From NCBI GenBank assembly GCA_017871115.1, contig JAFCIZ010000005.1, forward strand, positions 2,278,501 through 2,342,500: a stretch of 64,000 nt of DNA, in the 5' to 3' direction. Shown here in pieces: positions 56,329 to 58,451 of the stretch. The notes below the pieces were generated by a model. The model was not told where the DNA came from and made no database searches. It worked only from the letters and a program-made list of their open reading frames with translations. This DNA is from Cunninghamella blakesleeana (taxonomy: Eukaryota > Mucoromycota > Mucoromycetes > Mucorales > Cunninghamellaceae). How positions within the stretch are numbered: position 1 is the first letter of the stretch; every line of letters starts with the position of its first letter. The translations under genes and the position numbers were made by a program.

Positions 56329-58451
56329 ATGACGTTTTTTATACCTTTGAGACGTTCTCCATATACCACTTCAACTTCATATTGGGAACATAACGAATGG
56401 AAAAGAAGACATGGTTATCAGTTACCTATCGATTCATACCTTTTATTACAATGGGGAACTTCCATTTTACTTGATTTGTTTTTTTATTACTTTTTAATCT
56501 ATTTTATTACCGATATACCTGAAGCTGAACAAAGTTCAATACATTCATTATTACAAAAGTCTTCTTTAATGGAAATGGATGGTCCGACCACTTCTACTTG
56601 GTTATTGGCTAACTATGCTCAACAAATATCCTTTTTTATACATATATACAATTTTTATTATTATTATTATTACTATTTCAAAAAATGATATTATCTTTAA
56701 CCTTGTTTTTTTTAATACACCATGATGTGTATTTGTTTAGGCATTAAATTATTAAGTATTATTACATCATTCATTGAAACCGAAGATCCTGTCATAAAAG
56801 CTAATCCAACACCCCGCAGTAAATCATATGTAAAAAAATATGGCTATTCAGTCATTGATCCTTATACAAGTATATGTGGTATCTGTCGTATTAAAGTGTA
56901 AAGTTAAAGAAAATTGATTATAAAACATGATGACCAAGAGGGACTCACTTTTATTATACTATTATTATTACCATTAGACCAAAAACAACAAGACATTGTA
57001 AATTATGTAATAAATGTATCGGTGGAATGGATCATCATTGTAAATGGCTTAATTGTTGTATTGGCATAGCAAATTATAGGTAATTCATTGAATAAAATTT
57101 AAAAAAAAAAACCAAAGCTGAAAAAAGAGAAAGATGAAAACTTGTTTATTATTATCATTAATGTAACCTTTTATTTTATTTTATTTTTTTTTCACTAGAT
57201 TTTTCATTATCTTAATTACATCAGTATTTGTTTCTTTATTATGGTATTCAAGTTTAACAACATATGTAGTATTCTTATGTTTTTATCGAAAAAATGTTTT
57301 TATAATGCATGGTAATAGACTAGATACATTATATATATATATATATATAGAATAATATTAACATCTACCTATATTATTCATCATTCTACTTGTATAAAAA
57401 AATTAGTGATATGGATGTTTGGACTTAATGATGATATGGACTCTCTTTCTATTTTAACACAACGATATTATTTAGCAATGTTTATTTCTTGTTTTATGGC
57501 TATTCTCTCTGTAGCAGCACTTATAGCAATTTCGAGATTATTAATTTTCCATATTCGGTTAGGTAAATATTCGGAAAAAAATAAAAATAAAAAAATAAGG
57601 CAAATACATTTATATACAGAGTGTGTAATTATTTATATTATTTAACTATTCTATCCTATTTTTTTTTAAAAAAAAAAAAATAATTAGCATTTTTAAATAT
57701 GACAACCATAGAATTTATAAATCATCCAATGAACCAATCATCAGTATATAGTAATCATTCGGCCGATTCTGACGATTCAGATTATAGTGAAGCATCAGAT
57801 TATAGTAATGATAAATATGATATCACGATAGAGGATGATTATGAAGAAAATAGTGAAAATCCTTGGAAACAACCTTGGCATCCAGCTTCCTCTAACCAAC
57901 AACAACAACAAGAAAGAAATACGTTCAATCATATAATGATTTCATGGGCTAATAAAATATCACATAAATTAACAGGTAGATCCTTCCATCATTATAAACG
58001 ATTATCTCGTAAAAGAAACCATCAAAGTGGATATCAATATTATTTAAATAAAATCTTATCATGGACAGCTTACCAACCAAAACAAAAATCTTCTCCTCCT
58101 AGAAGACGTAGACGATCCAATAGAAAAAGACATGATTCTCCTACAGCACTTCGGAATGATCTTAATTTAGAAGAAATTTTAGCAACTAGTACCATACGAC
58201 CTATGCCATTATCGGATGAAGATGGACCTAATTATGATGACGATATGGGATTGGATATTAATATGTTTGGAGATATACAGCATAATTCTTCTTCCATGGA
58301 AAATGATAATTTTACTCAACAAGTGGAATTAGAAGCATATGATAATAGTGGACATCAGGAACAACAACGTATTTATTCTTCCACACCAACAAAAGCGGCA
58401 AAATTATTAGATATTCGTCCAAACCAAATATCTCATATCACAGAAAATTAA
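56329..58451 (+). CDS. DHHC-type palmitoyltransferase
   Basis: Six exons: 56329-56625, 56719-56897, 56978-57079, 57199-57311, 57407-57562, 57688-58451, giving 536 residues. Protein S-acyltransferases attach palmitate to Cys on membrane proteins. The cysteine-rich domain is complete: C152-x2-C155, then HCKLCNKCIGGMDHHCKWLN with DHHC at 177-180, followed by CCIGIANYRFFIIL. The wording DHHCKWLN resembles ZDHHC1/11. Four hydrophobic segments are predicted: two before the DHHC domain and two after (TSVFVSLLWYSSLTTYVVF, MFISCFMAILSVAALIAI). The first intron (56626-56718) is of AT-AC type; see findings. The C-terminal about 250 residues are polar, with an acidic Ser/Asp/Tyr stretch and an Arg-rich block (PRRRRRSNRKR). 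They form a large cytosolic tail of unknown role. Confidence 0.9.
56626..56718 (+). other. U12-type AT-AC intron (minor spliceosome)
   Basis: The intron begins ATATCCTTTT, the exact U12 5' splice-site consensus, and ends in AC. About 20 nt before the end is ATCTTTAACC, one mismatch from the U12 branch-site consensus TCCTTAAC. Length is 93 nt. It joins ...NYAQQ and TMMCICLGIKLL in frame; no GT donor between the last conserved codons and the stop at 56686 gives an acceptable model. Confidence 0.8.

Follow-up and report, generated by a model that had tools for sequence, protein, structure and literature searches.

How is the first exon of this gene joined to the rest of its reading frame? In the window (the whole stretch of DNA analyzed here, 64,000 nucleotides), the frame that opens at 56329 encodes an N terminus and a first membrane segment and, if read without splicing, runs into a stop at 56686-56688. 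The original prediction had called this stop, had found no credible GT donor before it, and had placed a U12-type AT-AC intron at 56626-56718 within a DHHC palmitoyltransferase gene. We consider it very probable that 56626-56718 is indeed such an intron, removed by the spliceosome and lying in the 5′ part of a DHHC palmitoyltransferase gene with six exons, because its signals, the reading frame, the homologs and the small nuclear RNA (snRNA) matches in the genome all point that way. The predicted gene model is as follows.

56329..56625, plus strand: exon 1, 99 codons that hold the start codon, the N terminus and the first membrane segment (frame open from its first ATG)
56626..56718, plus strand: intron 1, a predicted U12-type AT-AC intron of 93 nt in phase 0 (both splice sites, branch site, reading frame and homologs)
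56719..56897, plus strand: exon 2, with the second membrane segment and the start of the cysteine-rich domain (frame, homologs and hydropathy)
56898..56977, plus strand: intron 2, ordinary GT-AG, GTAAAG..TTAG (by eye, then checked)
56978..57079, plus strand: exon 3, with the zinc-finger part and the DHHC motif (spliced product)
57080..57198, plus strand: intron 3, GTAATT..CTAG (by eye, then checked)
57199..57311, plus strand: exon 4 (spliced product)
57312..57406, plus strand: intron 4, GTAATA..TTAG (by eye, then checked)
57407..57562, plus strand: exon 5, with a further hydrophobic stretch seen by eye (spliced product)
57563..57687, plus strand: intron 5, GTAAAT..TTAG (by eye, then checked)
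57688..58451, plus strand: exon 6, with a motif that we take to be the one named TTIE, a long C-terminal tail and the stop codon (spliced product and the Cunninghamella echinulata model P0125)

Every exon is open, and removal of the five introns yields a protein of 536 residues that matches PF01529 at E 6.6e-29 over profile positions 5-132 of 133, with DHHC present; the open frame 56934-57083, which holds exon 3, matches the same profile at E 3.6e-14. The predicted product is thus a DHHC palmitoyltransferase with the cysteine-rich domain across its whole length, presumably resembling the ZDHHC1/11 subfamily. Eight solved chains match it by sequence, including ERF2, ZDHHC9, ZDHHC5 and DHHC20, all of them across the cysteine-rich domain and some extending further. 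Ahead of the domain, 19-residue hydropathy peaks begin at residue 45 (1.68) and residue 100 (2.01). Introns 2 to 5 all start with GTAA and end with AG, and removal of intron 2 gives KVPKTTRHC, in agreement with KVPKSTRHC in the homolog P0002. Convergent with this gene, on the minus strand at 58784-60190 of the window, lies a homocitrate synthase gene, whose frame seems to hold an unspliced intron near the N terminus. Of the 120 matches listed for its product, the closest come from Mucorales, with identities of up to 92%.

The first intron differs from the other four in its ends, AT at 56626 and AC at 56718. U12-type introns carry the 5′ splice-site consensus RTATCCTTT and the branch-site consensus TCCTTRAY, the latter about 10-20 nt upstream of the 3′ end; their ends are AT-AC or GT-AG, and no polypyrimidine tract precedes the 3′ end. 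The candidate signals at this locus, all read from the sequence, are these.

56626..56634, plus strand: U12-type 5′ splice site, ATATCCTTT
56694..56701, plus strand: U12-type branch site, TCTTTAAC
56714..56718, plus strand: 3′ splice site, AATAC

From 56626 the intron opens with the letters ATATCCTTTT, of which ATATCCTTT satisfies RTATCCTTT; TCTTTAAC departs from TCCTTRAY by a single C-to-T mismatch. The 3′ stretch TTGTTTTTTTTAATAC is T-rich, as is the region generally. Removal of the 93 nt brings codon 99 up to ACC ATG ATG TGT in phase 0 with no stop. The 5′ site, the branch-like site and the AATAC end are therefore as the original prediction described them, with its distance of "about 20" nt from the branch A to the 3′ end measuring 18-19 nt, and its statement that splicing keeps the frame holds as well. 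How rare are such signals by chance? RTATCCTTT occurs seven times in the window, each time as ATATCCTTT, against 3.2 expected, and at least seven matches were reached by 5 of 100 shuffles; by itself the 5′ motif is no rarity in an AT-rich window. Five of the six other sites (all but the one at 55451) were read by eye, and no intron was recognized at them. For the combined pattern ATATCCTTT..TTTAAC..AC the window has a single match, whereas 100 dinucleotide shuffles averaged 0.01, one of them also containing a match. The case for the intron is thus the 5′ motif in combination with the branch site, the AC end, the reading frame and homology.

The choice of junction can be put to the homologs directly. 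We enumerated 145 in-frame junctions with GT-AG, GC-AG, AT-AC or AT-AG ends (donor within 56480-56699, acceptor no further than 56879, minimum intron length 36 nt) and ranked them by alignment score summed over three homologs. The AT-AC junction 56626-56718 ranked second, with a score of 1352. First was 56628-56720 (1365), which is the proposed junction shifted by 2 nt and without the U12 5′ site, and the junctions ranked 3 to 8 likewise start with AT, at most 22 points from 56626-56718. Homology alone therefore cannot pick among the AT-starting introns; the U12 signals do.

The same ranking bears on the alternative that the original prediction had itself named, an ordinary U2-type GT-AG intron of 159 nt that has its donor GTCCGA at 56582 and its AG acceptor at 56740, with the U12-like letters being there by chance. 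This junction preserves the frame and, at 1265, scores highest of the GT-AG choices among the 145; the AT-AC junction stands 87 above it. Only four GT dinucleotides occur in 56480-56699 (GTTCAA, GTCTTC, GTCCGA and GTTATT), and none resembles the GTAA donors placed for the other four introns; GTCCGA shares nothing but its GT with GTAAAG, GTAATT, GTAATA and GTAAAT. Use of 56582-56740 would also lower the best 19-residue hydropathy of the second membrane segment from 2.01 to 1.09, outside the range of 1.48 to 2.31 found in six homologs, and would remove residues, just ahead of the junction, that are present in some form in 21 of 29 homologs. We therefore hold the GT-AG reading to be very improbable, and the claims that no credible GT donor precedes the stop and that AT-AC splicing restores the second membrane segment both stand.

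Those 29 sequences make up the junction alignment: 26 proteins found at E <= 1e-10 with the whole spliced protein as query, plus P0001-P0003 from an earlier search. P0004, a distant DHHC protein with 38% coverage, was left out of the count. Twenty-one of the 29 are contiguous at the junction of the AT-AC splice, with an upstream loop of variable length. Five more start at a Met just past the junction (P0125 from Cunninghamella echinulata, P0140 from Phascolomyces articulosus, P0144 from Circinella umbellata, P0145 from Mucor circinelloides, and P0136); P0125 is 95% identical over 81% of the query and tracks the product to its end. In P0133 (Mucor lusitanicus) there is a gap of five residues at the junction, P0149 begins further on, and P0150 is without the junction region. 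Gene callers that hold no AT-AC model would be expected to start such a gene past the intron or to force some other splice, and the five models that are without the first membrane segment are likely annotation errors of this kind. On this reading the intron may be common to several Mucorales genera, and the failure of gene callers on AT-AC introns would cost the models about 100 residues, the first membrane segment among them. In P0003, a protein ending where exon 2 ends, the intron site is read through. It seems to be a relative that does not have the intron at this position and, therefore, the intron would not be universal.

If the intron belongs to the minor spliceosome, the genome should hold its RNAs. 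The genome searched comprises 31.9 Mb in 12 contigs, with the window on contig C5. One match each was found for U11 snRNA (C2:1639526-1639710, minus strand, 70 bits against an Rfam cut-off of 39), U6atac snRNA (C1:4202773-4202882, plus strand, 54.5 bits, cut-off 33) and U12 snRNA (C1:4536842-4536941, minus strand, 38.2 bits, below its cut-off of 53). The U12 match is 100 nt long against a 151-position model, with 61 positions on the 3′ side of the model replaced by 7 bases, and it keeps the branch-pairing GUAAGGA. The 5′ AAAAAGGGC is present in the U11 alignment and GAAAGGAGAGAA in that of U6atac. None of 14 control genomes exceeded the Rfam cut-off for U11, U12 or U6atac. The U11-48K zinc finger PF05253 was not found in the genome, where no candidate scored against this 25-position model. 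With U11 and U6atac above their cut-offs and a U12 match below its own, the genome agrees with the expectation that the host keeps U12 machinery, and the case that the original prediction had named as its refutation, a genome lacking every U12-spliceosome component, does not apply. The same prediction had looked to the early-diverging Mucoromycota for that host, and the homocitrate synthase and DHHC protein matches place it in Mucorales, probably in Cunninghamella or a close relative.

Computed duplexes between intron and snRNAs add little to the U12 case. The best duplex with U12 pairs UCUUUA of the branch site with UAAGGA, and the best with U11 pairs the CCUUUU part of the 5′ site (CCUUUUUU) with AAAAAGGG at the U11 5′ end, both computed without a shuffled control. 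The best with U6atac falls on the GAGAAGGA stretch, outside the region expected to pair with the 5′ site; the expected AAAGGA is present in U6atac by inspection. As a separate observation, the U12 duplex runs upstream of the branch site, where AUAUUAUC at 56687-56701 of the intron lies against GAUAAUAU of U12, again without a chance control.

The member of the set that was not found is U4atac. Rfam family RF00618 at E <= 0.001 matched nothing in this genome, nor anything in the controls, so that its silence here does not establish absence; at E <= 10 there was again nothing here, and chance matches appeared in 11 of the 14 controls, each of them short of the cut-off. The complement of the genome's own U6atac stems, used as a strict pattern, gave 0 matches (control 0), and a looser version matched 19 times, with 32 matches in its reversed control. 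One repeat accounts for fifteen of these 19; the remaining four, judged by eye from their letters, were discarded. The repeat element is worth recording in its own right. It starts with GTCCTTTTATATTAAAAGC, its fifteen copies (L050, L052, L053, L055-L064, L066 and L068) are nearly alike over the 80 letters compared, and they lie on six contigs (C1, C2, C3, C4, C6 and C7), one of them 1.4 kb from the start of C6; the copy L050 has no Rfam match. The simpler reading of the U4atac result is that this RNA has diverged or was missed.

A host with minor-spliceosome RNAs might carry further introns of this type. Searching the whole genome with four U12 patterns yielded 48 rows, among them several with a common donor: 32 for AT-AC with TTTAAC (22 in the reversed control), 9 for GT-AG with TTTAAC (6), 6 for AT-AC with CTTAAC (1), and 1 for GT-AG with CTTAAC (2). 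The loose patterns are barely above their reversed controls; U12 introns are therefore few here, and the motif alone is weak proof. Rows were passed if at least 30 codons were open on each side and a stop lay inside the intron. Five of 41 rows passed (L014, L043, L046, L011 and L030), and none of the remaining seven did. L014 is the intron at 56626-56718 itself. L011 was rejected by eye, its downstream side resembling reverse-transcriptase sequence, as was L030, which has a low-complexity upstream side and an ordinary CAG acceptor adjoining the site. The other two are likely to be further AT-AC U12 introns.

C1:3101672-3101768, minus strand: L043, likely AT-AC U12 intron, 97 nt, phase 2
C6:3153019-3153101 (L046 1501-1583), plus strand: L046, likely AT-AC U12 intron, 83 nt, phase 1

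Both carry ATATCCTTT and CCTTAAC and join coding frames. The product at L046 matches the TFIIIC zinc finger PF12660 at E 6.9e-16 with the next exon and at 0.0048 without it. For L043, a neighboring exon of the gene matches PF00566 (RabGAP-TBC) at E 0.00023 and 21.3 bits, against a curated cut-off of 25.2; the joined exon piece has no Pfam match, and another neighboring piece has chance-level matches only. We take this gene to resemble TBC1D20. The branch-site letters are TTATCCTTAAC in the TFIIIC intron and GTTACCTTAAC in the TBC intron. Strict patterns miss some introns of this kind, and three is therefore a minimum. As a side observation, L047 (C9:18931) and L048 (C9:55586) are two 3,085-base stretches of contig C9 that are identical in every base and some 37 kb apart, through either a recent duplication or an assembly effect.

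These results bear on a second alternative, namely that the AT-AC junction is real and that its removal falls to the major spliceosome, which handles some AT-AC introns. The T-rich stretch before the 3′ end, as in U2-type introns, and the failure of the Rfam search to find U4atac in the genome would both suit it. Against it are the U12 5′ site ATATCCTTT and a branch site one difference from consensus, the U11, U12 and U6atac matches in the genome, and the two more introns that carry the same motifs, and on balance removal by the major spliceosome appears most unlikely. That the gene is instead broken by an insertion or frame error, with no splicing at 56626-56718, accounts for the stop in the raw frame at 56686. 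It is scarcely credible, since the six exons are open, the C. echinulata model is 95% identical across 81% of the query, and the removed stretch carries intron signals at each end, with the frame resuming exactly at the AC.

With removal by the minor spliceosome as the preferred reading, the course of events would follow from what is established for that machinery, in which U11 and U12 recognize the intron, U11 is exchanged for U6atac, and the intron is then removed. In the cell, U11 snRNA would recognize ATATCCTTT and U12 snRNA would pair with TCTTTAAC; U6atac would displace U11 from the 5′ site; and excision between 56625 and 56719 would join two in-frame exons and complete the second membrane segment. 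Were the intron retained, the in-frame stop at 56686 would end the protein after its first membrane segment.

What the locus offers, then, is a well-supported AT-AC minor intron together with most of its snRNA set in a probable Cunninghamella host; our literature search for minor splicing in Cunninghamella found nothing. The points of interest are the models that start past the intron in several Mucorales, and U4atac, which was not found. On the latter the nearest comparison is Lichtheimia corymbifera, also of the Mucorales. In the part of that report available to us, U4atac was not detected even in raw reads, the other AT-AC RNAs were detected, and the third stem of U12 was described as atrophied (PMC4133162). 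The likeness is plain, since here too U4atac was not found and the U12 match is short (100 nt against 151 positions), with the difference that the Lichtheimia search took in raw reads and ours a single assembly (PMC4133162). Because U4atac was found neither here nor in Lichtheimia, raw reads included, one might suppose that a separate U4atac has been lost in this fungus, and perhaps in some other Mucorales, with another RNA such as U4 escorting U6atac; we give this only a small chance, and the U4atac copy present in other basal fungi of the Lichtheimia comparison, so far as the available text of PMC4133162 describes them, counts against it. The two negatives do make the need for U4atac a testable question. 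For an Apophysomyces assembly, the available part of the source reports neither U4atac nor U12 (PMC5604411), and such negatives may reflect the limits of these snRNA searches.

The other fungal comparisons concern numbers. Rhizophagus irregularis is reported to have 205 minor introns and all four snRNAs (PMC10639083). Like it, the present genome combines fungal minor introns having conserved 5′ and branch motifs with minor snRNAs; unlike it, the genome gave three introns by strict patterns, and U4atac was not found (PMC10639083). U12 introns have also been published for Rhizopus oryzae and Phycomyces blakesleeanus, at a few per genome (PMC2846911), cited elsewhere as about 4 in Rhizopus oryzae and about 20 in Phycomyces (PMC10639083); among those with EST support, a single one in R. 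oryzae is of the AT-AC subtype, while P. blakesleeanus has 8 or 9 (PMC2846911, Table 2). The present host, probably a Cunninghamella, belongs to the same order, the Mucorales, and likewise shows few U12 introns, with the AT-AC subtype represented; the comparison is one of counts, and the introns here are predicted from genomic sequence (PMC2846911). Among DHHC palmitoyltransferase genes there is a precedent in animal ZDHHC8, which carries a U12 intron as intron 4 of 11 (PMC2831892). The gene family and the intron class are thus shared, whereas the ZDHHC8 intron is of the GT-AG subtype and the one at 56626-56718 of the AT-AC subtype (PMC2831892). U12 introns are already published for Mucorales, and this intron adds another case.
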